From assembly GCA_021325635.1 (NCBI GenBank), contig JAJPGV010000035.1:62001-126000 (forward strand): a DNA stretch of 64,000 nt. Reading direction: 5' to 3'. Positions 16,034 to 23,212 of this stretch are shown piece by piece. Each line of letters begins with the position of its first letter. Position 1 is the stretch's first letter. The notes below the pieces were generated by a model, which saw nothing but the letters and a program-made list of their open reading frames with translations, was not told the origin of the DNA and ran no database searches. A program made the position numbers and the translations under genes. The DNA comes from Chloroflexota bacterium. GTDB taxonomy: Bacteria > Chloroflexota > JAJPGV01.

Positions 16034-16906
16034 TCACCTTTCCGTCTGCCGGAGGAGCCCCACCAGTCCTCGCGGCAGGAGCAGCAGGGCGCCGAGGATG
16101 ACCAATCCCAACACCGTCGCGTGCGCGGTGGGCGCGTAGGCGTCGAGCAGCTCGGACGCGGCAGTTAGCAGGCAGGCGCCCAGCATCGGGCCAGTGATAG
16201 TTCCGGCGCCGCCAAGCAGCACCATGGCCAGCAGCTCGATGGTGATGCCGAGGTCGAACACCGTGCCGGGCTCGATGAACGTGAATGAGGTGGCCTCAAT
16301 GCCACCGACCAGGCCAATGAGCGCCGCGGCGGCGGAATACAGCGGCAACGTGCGTGACAGGCGCAGCTTGCTGGGCGTTGGCCCTTGGCCGACTGCGGGC
16401 CTGAGCCGCTGGCTGGCCAACGGCAGCGCGGCGGCGAGCGCCAGGAGCGCATAGTAGGTCAAGCGCGAGTCGGCGGCCGAGGGCGGCAGCGAGATCCCGC
16501 CCGTGCCGCCGGTCAAAGCGGTCCAGGCGGTGGCCAGCTCCCGTAGGGCGAAGGAGGCGCTGAGTGTGCCAATGGCGAAGATGTCCCAGCGGCCGCGCAG
16601 CAGGATGCTCCCCAGCACGCTGGCCAGCATCGCCGCCAGCACGCCACCGGCCAGGATCGAGGCGACCGCCGGCACCGCGGCCCGGGCGCTCAGGATGGCG
16701 GTGACGTAGGCTCCCAGTCCGAAGAACGCGGCGCTGCCCAGATCTGGCGCCCTGCCGAAACCGCCGACCAGGTTCCAGGCTTGAGCCATCACGGCGAAGG
16801 CGAACAGCGTCGCCAGCAGGCGCATGGACGTTCCTGCCGTTATCAACGGCAGTGCCACCAGAGCCGCTCCCGGTACGCCGAGCGCCACCGCCGCGCGGAT
16901 GCTCAT
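16034..16906 (-). CDS. branched-chain amino acid-type ABC permease (LivM family)
   Basis: A 290-residue inner-membrane permease with about eight hydrophobic segments. NLVGGFGRAPDLGSAAFFGLGAYVTAIL near 46-73 is the LivM signature, and GGAGTITGPMLGA near 232 is its typical cytoplasmic EAA-like loop. Its ATG overlaps the stop of the LivH-like gene (ATGA at 16903-16906). No LivG/LivF ATPase or Liv binding protein is adjacent: downstream lies the rhomboid gene and upstream a divergent, different binding-protein family. The substrate is therefore undetermined. Confidence 0.88.
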   Translation of the reverse strand: MSIRAAVALGVPGAALVALPLITAGTSMRLLATLFAFAVMAQAWNLVGGFGRAPDLGSAAFFGLGAYVTAILSARAAVPAVASILAGGVLAAMLASVLGSILLRGRWDIFAIGTLSASFALRELATAWTALTGGTGGISLPPSAADSRLTYYALLALAAALPLASQRLRPAVGQGPTPSKLRLSRTLPLYSAAAALIGLVGGIEATSFTFIEPGTVFDLGITIELLAMVLLGGAGTITGPMLGACLLTAASELLDAYAPTAHATVLGLVILGALLLLPRGLVGLLRQTER

Positions 16907-17727
16907 GGGAGCTCGTTTCCGGATCCGCGGCCGGCGACGAAGATGATCACGGCAAGGAGCAGGAGTCCGAACGCGGCGCTGTTCTCGAGCTGTGGGGCCG
17001 CCATGCCTGCCAGGGCAGCCTGGACGCTGGCCAATGCTAACCCCGCGCCGATGAGGCCAGCTAGTCCGCCCGTTCTGGCGAGAAGGGCTGTCGCCGCGGC
17101 TACCGGCAAAAAGAACCAGCCGGCGCCTGAGGGAACGGCACGGTCGAGGACGAACAGCGCCCCGGCGGCCCCTGCAAGGCCTGAGCCCAGCGCGAAAGCG
17201 AGGGCGTCGGCTCGACCTACGTCGATGCCCGCGGCCGCGGCCGCTCCGCGGTCGTCAGCGACATGGCTCATCACCCTGCCTATTCGCGAGCAGCCCCATA
17301 GCCACCACAGTGTCAGCAGCAGCGCCGCCAGCAGCAGCTGGGACAGCCGCGCCGCCTCTGATTCGGGGCCTGCCGCTGGCGGCATGCTCGGCTGGAAGAT
17401 TTGAACGAGCTCCAGGCAGACGATCCCTACTGCCAGCGTAGCCAGCAGCCCGGCTCGTCTCGGCCGCTGCGCCAGCCGCTCCAGCAGCCAGTTCTGCAGC
17501 AGCCAGCCCAGCACAAACGCCGCGAGAGCGACCATCGGCGCGAGCAGCGCGTTGAGTCCGAGTGACTGGGACAGCCATAGAGCCAGGTCGGCGCCGGTGA
17601 CGGCGAATGCGCCGTGGGCCAGATTGGGAGCTCCGGTGACGCGCCATGACGTCAGGAAACCGGCGCCGAGCAGCGCGTAGAGCGCCCCCGACGACAGGAC
17701 GTCTAGCAGGAGCTGGGGAAGGTGCAA
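16903..17727 (-). CDS. branched-chain amino acid-type ABC permease (LivH family)
   Basis: A 274-residue permease that opens with LPQLLLDVLSSGALYALLGAGF, the usual LivH beginning, followed by NLAHGAFAVTGADLALW and eight hydrophobic segments; GAAAAAGIDVGRADALAFALGSGLAGAAGAL is the conserved cytoplasmic/TM block. It is chosen to begin at TTG 17727 because upstream residues do not look like protein of this family. It pairs with LivM through a 4-nt overlap. The operon holds two permeases only. Confidence 0.85.
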   Translation of the reverse strand: MHLPQLLLDVLSSGALYALLGAGFLTSWRVTGAPNLAHGAFAVTGADLALWLSQSLGLNALLAPMVALAAFVLGWLLQNWLLERLAQRPRRAGLLATLAVGIVCLELVQIFQPSMPPAAGPESEAARLSQLLLAALLLTLWWLWGCSRIGRVMSHVADDRGAAAAAGIDVGRADALAFALGSGLAGAAGALFVLDRAVPSGAGWFFLPVAAATALLARTGGLAGLIGAGLALASVQAALAGMAAPQLENSAAFGLLLLAVIIFVAGRGSGNELP

Positions 17728-17806: not shown

Positions 17807-17812
17807 TACGAT
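17807..17812 (+). promoter_or_regulatory. -10 box TACGAT, leaderless start at GTG 17819
   Basis: TACGAT ends 6 nt before GTG 17819. The spacing fixes the start of the binding-protein-like gene and rules out an upstream signal peptide on the same message. Confidence 0.5.
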
Positions 17813-17818
17813 GGTACC

Positions 17819-19144
17819 GTGATCGTCGGAGTGCAGGCGATTCCGGCCTGTTTCGACGTCGAGCAAAACCGCTGCACCTGCTCCCCGGTTGCGCTGGAAG
17901 CGCACCTCCAGGCCTATGATTCGCTGCTGCAGTATCAGCTTCGAAGCGACAGCAGTGGCTACAAGCTTCTCGACGTCAAGTCGCTGAAACCGTGCCTGGC
18001 TCAATCCTGGGAAATTTCGTCCGATGGACGGACGTGCAGCCTGCAGCTGCGCAAGGGCATCCTGAGCGCTGCTGGGAACGAGCTGACGGCGCATGACGTC
18101 AAGTGGTCCTGGGAGCGCTGCTTCGCCCTCAATTCATGGAGCGCGCGCATCGCTCGGCTGGCCGGCGTCTCGTCCCCCGACATGGTGCGGGCCCCGCAAA
18201 CCTACACCGTGCAGTTCAGGCTCGATCGACCGAGCACGCTCCTGCCGCGGGCGCTCGCGAGCACCTTTCCCGCGATCTATGACCTCGAGGAGGTCCGTGG
18301 GCATTGCCCGGTTGGCGATCCCTGGGGTCACGTGTGGCTGAGCCAGCACACCGCGGGCTTCGGTCCCTACACGCTGCAGCGCGCGGTTGAGGGCGAGGAA
18401 GCGACGTTGGTGGCGAATCCCAACTACTGGCAGGGCCCGGTACTGGAGCGGCGGGTGTTGCTGCGTGTCACGCTGCCGGTTGAAGCGCGCTCCGGCGCTC
18501 TTCGGCGTGGCAGCCTCGAGATCGCGACGGACCTTCCGGCCGGCGAGATCCGAGCGCTCGCACGCCAGGCGGGCGCACGCGTGGCCGAGTACCCGAGCCA
18601 GCGCCAGGTGGTGCTGCGCCTCGATCCGTCGTATGCCCCATTCGATCAGCGCCAGGTGCGCCAGGCGCTGCGACTGCTCATGCCATACGAAGACATCAGC
18701 CAGGTGCTCTGCCTCGAGCCTGCCGCAGCGGTGCATGCCGAGCAAGATTTGCGGCTCGCCCGGACGCTGCTCAAGGAGGCCGGCTACGGCTCCGGTTTTC
18801 GGACCACGGTGTACCTGCCCGCGGGCAGCCCGGACCTCCAGGCCGTGGCACAGCTGGTGCAGATCGGCGCCATCCGCGCCGATCTCAAAATCGTCGTCGA
18901 ACCCATGAGCCCAGCGTTGTTCGCTCGTGAGAAGGCCGCGCGACATCTGCCGATCTATCTCGAGGAGCGATCGCCCATCGAGGCCCTCTTTTCGCCTGAA
19001 GAGCTCGAGCCGCTGCCGGACGTTGAGGCCGTGCTGCTGGCGCAGCCGCACCAATATTTCGCGGCGCGTTCCAACGTGCGAGGGTTCATTCGCCGGCCGG
19101 ACGGGCGGCCGCGCTACTACGAGCTGCGCAAGGTACAGGCATGA
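17819..19144 (+). CDS. family 5 solute-binding-like protein without signal peptide
   Basis: A 441-residue relative of the oligopeptide/nickel-type extracellular binding proteins (SBP_bac_5). LKPCLAQSWEISSDGRTCSLQLRKGI, ELTAHDVKWSWER and the TAGFGPYTL / NPNYWQGP block are the family landmarks. Unlike family members it has no signal peptide, lipobox or membrane segment: it starts MIVGVQAIPACFDVEQ, already in the mature domain, and no in-frame start lies upstream. It has several Cys, unusual for a secreted protein. Its stop overlaps the start of a response regulator (ATGA), and it is divergent from LivH/LivM. A cytoplasmic ligand sensor is the inferred role; a degenerate transporter component is the alternative. 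Confidence 0.85.
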   Translation: MIVGVQAIPACFDVEQNRCTCSPVALEAHLQAYDSLLQYQLRSDSSGYKLLDVKSLKPCLAQSWEISSDGRTCSLQLRKGILSAAGNELTAHDVKWSWERCFALNSWSARIARLAGVSSPDMVRAPQTYTVQFRLDRPSTLLPRALASTFPAIYDLEEVRGHCPVGDPWGHVWLSQHTAGFGPYTLQRAVEGEEATLVANPNYWQGPVLERRVLLRVTLPVEARSGALRRGSLEIATDLPAGEIRALARQAGARVAEYPSQRQVVLRLDPSYAPFDQRQVRQALRLLMPYEDISQVLCLEPAAAVHAEQDLRLARTLLKEAGYGSGFRTTVYLPAGSPDLQAVAQLVQIGAIRADLKIVVEPMSPALFAREKAARHLPIYLEERSPIEALFSPEELEPLPDVEAVLLAQPHQYFAARSNVRGFIRRPDGRPRYYELRKVQA

Positions 19145-19599
19145 CAGAAGAGTGGGAGCTTCATCCTCTGCACGATGCCAATGAGGGTGAGGACGACCTG
19201 TTTCGGCTCACGGATCATCCGTTGCGGATCCTGGTGGTTGACGACGAGTCGTTGATTGCCCTGGCCCTGCATGACCAGCTGGTCTACCTGGGGCACTCCG
19301 TGGTGGCTACCGCCAGCAGCGGTCGAGAAGCCATCGATCTGGCTGCCGAGCATGATCCCGACCTGGTGCTGATGGACGTGCATCTTGGTGGCATGGATGG
19401 CCTGCAGGCCGCCGAAGCCATCAATCAGCGCCGGCGAACTCCGGTCATCGTCCTCACCGGCTTTCCGGACAAGGCGATCGTCGAGCGAGCGCAGGAAGCC
19501 GGCGTGGTGGCTCACCTCCTGAAGCCGATCGACATCGAAGATCTACGCGCTGCCGTCGAAACCGGCTGGGCGCTCTTTCAGGACGGGGGTGGACGCTAA
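19141..19599 (+). CDS. receiver-only response regulator
   Basis: A 152-residue protein with one CheY-type receiver domain (residues 28-145) and no output domain. D34 and D35 bind Mg, D79 in LMDVHLGG is the phosphorylation site, T106 in VLTGF and K128 in LLKPID complete the switch residues. A 25-residue acidic leader (EEWELHPLHDANEGEDD) precedes it. It is translationally coupled to the binding-protein-like gene. Its layout resembles the first half of ANTAR regulators (PdtaR), but the ANTAR domain is missing. No histidine kinase is adjacent; the nearest is at 23491. Confidence 0.92.
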   Translation: MTEEWELHPLHDANEGEDDLFRLTDHPLRILVVDDESLIALALHDQLVYLGHSVVATASSGREAIDLAAEHDPDLVLMDVHLGGMDGLQAAEAINQRRRTPVIVLTGFPDKAIVERAQEAGVVAHLLKPIDIEDLRAAVETGWALFQDGGGR

Positions 19600-19638: not shown

Positions 19639-19839
19639 CTAGCGCAGCACCGCTAGCCCGGTGACGAGAGCCAGCGCCACAAGGGCCAGGGAGAACGCGA
19701 TACTGCATGCTGTCAGGGCCCTGTCGCTGGCCAGACGAGCGTGCCAGCGGGCTGTGGCGAGGAAGGCGCCAGCGCTCAGCAGCAGCAGGCCGCCGAGGCA
19801 TGCTGTTTCAGGCGAGAGATCCGGCACGGGAATGCGCAC
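19639..19839 (-). CDS. putative small membrane protein, 66 aa
   Basis: Two hydrophobic stretches (about residues 14-30 and 44-64) flank a short basic loop (ARWHARLASDR), the plan of a two-TM miniprotein. The start would be GTG 19839. No ribosome site or family is recognised; it fills an otherwise empty 450-nt gap and may be chance coding in GC-rich DNA. Confidence 0.4.
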   Translation of the reverse strand: MRIPVPDLSPETACLGGLLLLSAGAFLATARWHARLASDRALTACSIAFSLALVALALVTGLAVLR

Positions 19840-19989
19840 GAGTCTACTACGACTGGCTGCTGGCGAGCTCCGCTTGGCTAAAGATTGAGGAGCCGAGCTC
19901 CGATACTACATGTGAAGGCAGGGATGCCCGGATGAGGCCCCGCAAGGGCCGCTGGAACGGATGCCAGTCAGCATCAGGCAACCCAACGC

Positions 19990-21667: not shown

Positions 21668-21679
21668 TTGCATAAAACC

Positions 21680-21693
21680 AGCGCACGTGCGCT
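21680..21693. promoter_or_regulatory. 14-bp perfect palindrome AGCGCACGTGCGCT
   Basis: A second perfect palindrome, 26 bp centre to centre from the first, 14 nt before the ATG at 21707. The spacing of about 2.5 helical turns places the two on opposite DNA faces. Operator function is an inference. Confidence 0.4.
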
Positions 21694-21706
21694 CCAAAGT
21701 GGACAC

Positions 21707-23212
21707 ATGCACGAAGACGACGATTTCCCCGAGCACTTTCACCTGGAGCCGGGTGAGGTATCCGAAGACGTCGAAGGACTCGAGAAGTTCTCCCTGACTT
21801 CAGTCGGGATCGACATCGGATCGTCCACCTCTCACCTGGTGTTCTCCCACCTGACGTTGAGGCGCAAGGGGGCCGACCTGTCGACGCGCTTCGAGGTATC
21901 CGAGCGCCGGGTACTGTACCGATCGCCCATTCTGCTCACGCCCTATCGGTCCAGCACCATGATCGACGTCGACGGCCTGAGCGCCTTCTTCGACGAAAAC
22001 TACAAGCGGGCGGGATTTTCGCCGGCAACGATTGACACGGGCGCCGTGGTGATTACCGGCGAAGCCCTGAACAAGGAGAACGCGCGCCCGATTGCCGAGC
22101 TGTTCGCGCAGCATTCGGGCAAGTTCATCTGCGCTTCTGCCGGGCCCAATCACGAGGCGCTCCTCGCGGCGCACGGTTGTGGGGCCGTGGCGCTGTCGGC
22201 CAAGGAGCACACCAGCGTGCTCAACGTCGACATCGGCGGCGGCACGACGAAGCTGTCGCTCGTACACGATGGAGTCGTGCTGAGCACCGCCGCCATCAGC
22301 GTGGGGGCCAGGCTGCTGGCCTTTGACACTGATGGCCGGGTTTCACGCGTCGAGGAGCCGGCGAGGCGCCTGCTCCGCGAGCTTGGCTTAGAAACGGCCG
22401 TTGGCGCTGAGCTGGACCAGTCGGTGCGGCAGCAGCTGGCCGACTTGATGGCCGGCTGCTTGCTGGAAGTCATGGACGGCCAGCCACAATCGGATCTCGG
22501 GCAGGACCTGATGGTGACCGAGGAGGCCCTCAGCGCCTACGGAGGGCTCCGGACGGTGAGCTTCCTCATCTTTTCCGGAGGCGTCTCGGAGTACATCTAC
22601 CAGCATGACAGCACCGCGTATGGGGATCTCGGCCCGTTGCTCGGTGCCGCCATTCGCGAACGGCTGAAGAGCGTGCCGGCCCGGCTGGCCCTGCGCGAGG
22701 GTGCCGAAGGCATTCGAGCCACGGTCATCGGAGCAGGCGAATACACCATCCAGGCCAGCGGTATGACCAGCTACCTGTCCGACCTCAGCGTGCTGCCGGC
22801 GGTTGGCTTGAAGGTAGTCAAAGCCCCCGTTTCCCACGGCGTCTCGCTCCGTACGGCGCTGCGCGCTGCGCTGGGGAAGTTCGATCTGCAGACATACACA
22901 GAGGGGCTGGCGGTGGCTTTGTCCCTGTCCGAGCGCCCCAGCTACACGCTGGTGCGCGGCGTGGCGCGAGAGGTGGCACACCTGCTCCAGCACTCCACCA
23001 ACCCGGAGATGCCGCTCTACCTGATCCTCGATGCCGACATCGGCAAGTCACTTGGGGGGATCCTCAAGGAAGAGCTCCGCCTGCCCGGCGCCATCATTGC
23101 CATCGATGGCATCGACGTTGGCGACCTCGATTACGTGGACATTGGCCGCCCAATGGGTGTGTCCGAGTCACTGCCGGTGACCGTTAAGTCGCTGATGTTC
23201 CCTCGAGGTTGA
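21707..23212 (+). CDS. eutA: EutA-like ethanolamine ammonia-lyase reactivating factor
   Basis: A 501-residue actin-fold ATPase of the EutA family, which restores B12-inactivated ethanolamine ammonia-lyase. The family marks are all here: VGIDIGSSTSHLVFSHLTL (phosphate loop 1), RRVLYRSPILLTPY, DTGAVVITGEALNKENA, CASAGPNHEALLAAHGCGA and NVDIGGGTTKLSLV (phosphate loop 2). No eutB, eutC, cobalamin adenosyltransferase or microcompartment gene is in the window. The start ATG 21707 skips 13 residues of an in-frame TTG extension. It may act on a remote lyase or be repurposed. Confidence 0.9.
   Translation: MHEDDDFPEHFHLEPGEVSEDVEGLEKFSLTSVGIDIGSSTSHLVFSHLTLRRKGADLSTRFEVSERRVLYRSPILLTPYRSSTMIDVDGLSAFFDENYKRAGFSPATIDTGAVVITGEALNKENARPIAELFAQHSGKFICASAGPNHEALLAAHGCGAVALSAKEHTSVLNVDIGGGTTKLSLVHDGVVLSTAAISVGARLLAFDTDGRVSRVEEPARRLLRELGLETAVGAELDQSVRQQLADLMAGCLLEVMDGQPQSDLGQDLMVTEEALSAYGGLRTVSFLIFSGGVSEYIYQHDSTAYGDLGPLLGAAIRERLKSVPARLALREGAEGIRATVIGAGEYTIQASGMTSYLSDLSVLPAVGLKVVKAPVSHGVSLRTALRAALGKFDLQTYTEGLAVALSLSERPSYTLVRGVAREVAHLLQHSTNPEMPLYLILDADIGKSLGGILKEELRLPGAIIAIDGIDVGDLDYVDIGRPMGVSESLPVTVKSLMFPRG

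Follow-up and report, generated by a model that had tools for sequence, protein, structure and literature searches.

The window analysed here, by which we mean the whole 64,000-nucleotide stretch of a Chloroflexota contig (JAJPGV010000035.1), carries a gene for a solute-binding protein (SBP) whose stop codon overlaps the start of a receiver gene. Two permease genes are divergent from this pair. The features are:

16034..16906, minus strand: orphan LivM-like permease
16903..17727, minus strand: orphan LivH-like permease, TTG start, divergent from the SBP gene
17807..17812, plus strand: TACGAT, a weak candidate -10 box for leaderless transcription, 6 bases ahead of the GTG
17819..19144, plus strand: signal-less SBP_bac_5-family protein, 441 aa, GTG start (PF00496, E 1.3e-49; open reading frame and upstream-frame reading)
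19141..19144, plus strand: ATGA, 4-base stop-start overlap of the SBP and receiver genes
19141..19599, plus strand: receiver-only protein (Response_reg), 152 aa, an ANTAR-lineage receiver without ANTAR domain, with a 27-aa N-terminal extension

In the open reading frame listing both genes lie at the coordinates given by the first-pass annotation. SBP_bac_5 (PF00496) was the single Pfam family matched by the SBP, with 169.7 bits against a cut-off of 32.4 and over profile positions 2-337 of 368. For the receiver, Response_reg (E 5.1e-27) was the sole match above a cut-off; as annotated, its gene overlaps the SBP stop and codes for no output domain.

The LivH/LivM genes had been described as divergent from the SBP and lacking a binding protein. 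This was confirmed, and the ATPases are absent as well: no LivG, LivF or type-I binding protein was found between the SBP and an rsmG-like gene (named by eye), which lies beyond LivH/LivM and a gene for a rhomboid protein. The closest LivM paralogue in the genome, a full-length match (E 1.6e-38), is on contig C13, where the reading frames were read by eye as a complete SBP-LivH-LivM-LivG-LivF set. Since this paralogue sits in an apparently complete set, we consider the LivH/LivM of the window to be orphans. The LivH query matched no other genome at E 1e-25 among 400 phylum genomes. We dropped the idea of an internal deletion in LivM, suggested by a split Pfam match, as the alignment with the paralogue (4-286 on 11-306) is essentially full length.

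No Dpp/Opp-type permeases or ATPases were found beside the window SBP, whose neighbours are LivH/LivM (BPD_transp_2), the receiver and an aldehyde dehydrogenase. A possible small hydrophobic membrane protein was noticed by eye between the last two (19640-19850, minus strand). The aldehyde dehydrogenase is adjoined by a EutA-family protein (21668-23212; PF06277, E 6.9e-119); reading by eye, we did not notice an ethanolamine ammonia-lyase gene in the stretch read.

Start site and location of the binding protein

The frame upstream of the GTG at 17819 runs 46 codons back to a stop, and these codons contain neither an ATG, GTG or TTG nor a hydrophobic run. No signal peptide was found in the other two upstream frames. 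The G+C content at the three codon positions is 71.7/47.6/80.3 within the SBP reading frame and 65.2/71.7/63.0 in the 138 bases 5' of it. Since the codon-position bias is present inside the frame and absent upstream, coding begins at about 17819. Both the upstream frames and the codon bias therefore agree with the earlier claim that the SBP has no signal peptide and no upstream start. The TACGAT motif is only a hint of a leaderless promoter. It lies 5-7 bases ahead of 3 of the window's 44 starts, which is no clear enrichment, and a sigma-70 scan found nothing.

Relatives of the SBP were sought in an even sample of 400 phylum genomes from a larger group; beyond the phylum, the search took in a plasmid collection, one genome-contig scan and one viral-contig scan. 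The best match in another genome came from G136 alone, in two copies with 38% (contig C361) and 34% (contig C219) identity, a divergence of about 62-66% from the nearest relatives. Both copies are signal-less, like the window SBP. The C361 copy has an ATG start with a TGA two codons upstream, 3 bases past the stop of a TRAP DctM gene, and in the C219 copy, which starts at GTG, the frame stays open for just 11 codons upstream. Signals are present in the next matches, those of G192 and of proteobacterial plasmids, and the annotated plasmid homologues adjoin ABC permeases. Across 29 genomes of G136's class, matches past 1e-50 came from G136 and from exported G192 genes alone. The scan of genome contigs with the SBP gave only three weak exported homologues, and no homologue was found in the viral contigs. 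The first-pass annotation had named signal peptides in homologues as one of two findings that would speak against it; they are present in the distant homologues and absent from the two closest.

In G136, the C361 SBP gene follows dctP, dctQ and dctM as the final gene of the series and faces AtuA and DUF4387 genes in convergent orientation, and the C219 SBP lies between the end of Hydantoinase_B and an aminotransferase class IV gene. Non-cognate permeases adjoin two of the three signal-less SBPs, LivH/LivM in the window and TRAP DctPQM at C361. One genome thus holds two signal-less SBP_bac_5 genes, after TRAP DctM (L086, 1966-3465) and among hydantoinase genes (L087, 611-2107), and these are candidates for other types of internal sensor.

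In a 50-row tree, the window SBP and the two G136 SBPs form one clade (support 99/95), nested among exported SBPs with Tat, Sec or lipoprotein signals. Cysteines were counted on the same 50 rows, a selection from the fetched loci comprising the 3 signal-less SBPs and 47 others. The aligned cores of the signal-less SBPs contain 8, 8 and 5 cysteines and rank first to third, whereas among the others the median is 1 and the highest count 4. This is as expected of proteins spared oxidising export. The several cysteines first noticed in the window SBP number 8. The survey of signals covered 94 entries, several of them repeating one gene. Not counted as signal-less were L042 (G174), which is without the Tat-like stretch of its cousin L041, L116 (G184), which has no clear signal, and L097, L103 and L121, which are truncated at contig ends; L041 entered the tree, and the other entries named here were left out of the tree and the cysteine count.

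The start site, the relatives and the cysteines are largely independent lines and are mutually consistent, and the window SBP very probably resides in the cytoplasm, so the claim that it stays inside is well supported. Judged from sequence, it belongs to a clade of family-5 proteins in which the signal peptide was lost. That the true start was lost by a sequencing or assembly error, and that the SBP is an ordinary exported protein, is very improbable. The genome is a draft of 63 contigs and the distant homologues do bear export signals, but no signal peptide is present in any of the three upstream frames, the coding bias is absent there, two relatives are signal-less too and the protein contains 8 cysteines.

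Alignment with homologues showed that the window SBP is shortened, with about 16 residues missing near residue 300 and about 46 near residue 386, in the second lobe. Both losses are in-frame, and the conserved motifs and the C-terminal end are retained. The larger loss, in the second lobe, makes ligand binding uncertain. A structure prediction from four sequences gave a mean pLDDT of 47.4, with only residues from about 230 to 380 fair, and no conclusion here draws on it. These losses could mean that the SBP is a remnant, which lost its signal peptide and pieces of the second lobe and is decaying beside LivH/LivM that also lost their partners, the ATPases and the binding protein; a second shortened SBP_bac_5 protein in the same genome points the same way. 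However, 441 codons run without a stop (against 6 and 8 stops in the other two forward frames) and show normal codon-position bias along all blocks, and this at such a divergence from the nearest relatives. Together with the retained motifs and C-terminus, and with the two full-length proteins of G136 in the same signal-less clade, this makes decay an unlikely explanation.

The receiver and its occurrence beside binding proteins

The window receiver keeps the acidic, phospho-acceptor, threonine and lysine residues (DDE at 34-36, D79, T106 and K128). Neither an ANTAR nor any other output domain was found, and its C-terminus is at the point where the linker to ANTAR would start. The best match in the PDB was 1s8n, a 'putative antiterminator' (1e-26; the next was 3.7e-17). 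Among the 76 other receiver matches in the genome, the closest paralogue was C23:13791 (5.9e-26; the next was 6.0e-18), a protein of 219 aa. The sole ANTAR domain detected genome-wide lies in this protein, and a kinase-like gene (type read by eye) is just upstream. In a tree of 47 receivers, the window receiver stands beside 33 ANTAR receivers and apart from 13 others of the genome, which are only its best-matching ones; the support of 91/84 is below the starred level and the branch is long (1.52). By its matches and its position in the tree, the window receiver is a member of the ANTAR (antiterminator) lineage without the ANTAR domain. PADLOC gave weak receiver matches only. A second ANTAR locus was noticed in G136 (L173, 3778-5744), where a histidine-kinase-like gene (by eye) is directly followed by a REC-ANTAR gene.

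The first-pass annotation had proposed searching for the pair in related genomes. No SBP-receiver pair was found in another genome among the 400 of the phylum; in the collection, the class is represented by the window's genome alone. The second finding that the annotation had named against itself, a pair conserved in no other genome, thus holds for this sample, which covers the phylum beyond close relatives. In 110 fetched loci (repeats included), receivers adjoin only the window SBP and one other gene of the same genome. This second pair, on contig C6 (L071, 1288-2847, minus strand), consists of a receiver-only gene of 165 aa and, 27 bases later, a 344-aa SBP_bac_5 protein. The latter matches only positions 1-189 of 368 of the PF00496 profile and seems to keep only the first lobe. 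Its N-terminus is Tat/lipoprotein-like, and a signal of this type rules out contact with the receiver inside the cytoplasm. Searching the 400 phylum genomes with this SBP gave 30 loci, with a receiver only at its own.

The genome has seven SBP_bac_5 matches, and both shortened ones adjoin lone receivers; no receiver was found beside the five longer ones in the fetched flanks. Conversely, no SBP_bac_5-like neighbour was found in 20 other receiver stretches of the genome, chosen mainly for short frames. With 77 receiver matches in 4.64 Mb, we roughly estimate that two receiver neighbours among seven SBPs would arise by chance as a few-percent event. Therefore, the association between SBP_bac_5 proteins and lone receivers is more than a single coincidence. 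Since the C6 SBP is probably exported, the second pair counts against direct contact as a general rule.

The two window genes could also be co-expressed without being partners, the receiver acting as a CheY-like relay for some histidine kinase and the SBP serving a separate function in the cytoplasm, in binding or storage. We give this explanation a minor, though not small, chance. It fits the absence of the pair from every other genome searched and the two G136 SBPs, on whose contigs (6.2 and 4.0 kb) no receiver was found, and the number of receivers in the genome means that chance neighbours are not rare. Against it stand the 4-base overlap of the genes and the receiver, whose lineage is exactly the one that partners cytoplasmic SBPs in the known systems.

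A possible internal sensor and known systems

A cytoplasmic SBP next to an ANTAR-lineage receiver has the layout of NasS-NasT and AmiC-AmiR, and for this reason our best reading is an internal sensor. We tentatively suggest, by analogy, that the SBP and the receiver form a cytoplasmic ligand sensor made together with its signalling partner; for the functional partnership as such, the odds are a little under even. The ligand-sensing module first proposed is thus plausible. It gained weight from the lineage of the receiver, the partner type in both known systems, and lost some because no second genome with the pair was found among the 400. The G136 SBPs without receivers, the loss in the second lobe, the missing output domain and the lipoprotein-type signal of the second SBP also count against a sensor.

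In such a sensor, the SBP would bind a small molecule inside the cell, and its apo or holo form would hold the receiver, as in AmiC-AmiR and NasS-NasT. The ligand, with or without phosphorylation, would then free the receiver. Lacking any RNA- or DNA-binding part, the receiver would act on another protein. Its probable targets would be the expression of the divergent LivH/LivM, or the proteins that partner the one ANTAR regulator of the genome. A more specific model, to which we give a slim chance, is a third, independently built switch of a cytoplasmic SBP and an ANTAR receiver, with a family-5 fold, in which the receiver would have lost its RNA-binding part. The receiver would be a ligand-gated decoy, competing with the single ANTAR regulator for the histidine kinase encoded next to that regulator on contig C23, and the SBP would set the amount of free receiver.

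If the sensor reading is true, a third binding-protein fold, besides those of AmiC and NasS, has been recruited inside the cell to control an ANTAR-type signalling protein. It would also mean that 'extracellular solute-binding' names given by annotation pipelines hide internal sensors. More of them could be screened for by the lack of a signal, the cysteine content, non-cognate permeases and a neighbouring receiver.

In the literature we found papers on NasS-NasT and AmiC-AmiR, and none on an SBP_bac_5-receiver pair. The exported binding proteins of Dpp/Opp-type ABC importers belong to the same Pfam family as the window SBP and are its nearest exported sister clade; they differ in having signal peptides and, where annotated, neighbouring ABC permeases of their own type, and the window SBP has neither. 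In SgrR, a cytoplasmic SBP_bac_5-type domain serves in regulation, fused to a DNA-binding domain at the N-terminus. The window protein differs, as it consists of SBP_bac_5 only and has no DNA-binding domain on its chain. The closest relatives of the receiver are REC-ANTAR regulators of the 1s8n type, which we take to be PdtaR and EutV, and the window protein differs from them by the absence of ANTAR. The partner of PdtaR and EutV is a histidine kinase and not an SBP. AmiC has the type-I (Liv) fold, and the window SBP has no match to this fold (Peripla_BP_6).

Closest in layout are the cytoplasmic binding proteins encoded beside ANTAR-type receivers, which, according to PMC3795266, sense a ligand and release the regulator. 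In the AmiC-AmiR system of Pseudomonas aeruginosa, which responds to amides, a binding-protein fold inside the cell holds an ANTAR-family regulator in a ligand-responsive complex, according to the same paper. AmiR has an ANTAR domain, and the window receiver is without one. Likewise, the C-terminal ANTAR domain of NasT binds RNA and has no counterpart in the window receiver, and NasS is NrtA-like, whereas the window SBP matched SBP_bac_5 alone. The likeness to the nitrate system of Paracoccus denitrificans is in the arrangement: as PMC3795266 describes it, NasS resembles NrtA without its signal sequence, is encoded beside the REC-ANTAR protein NasT and frees it on nitrate or nitrite, and the window pair likewise combines a signal-less, cytoplasmic SBP with an ANTAR-type receiver.
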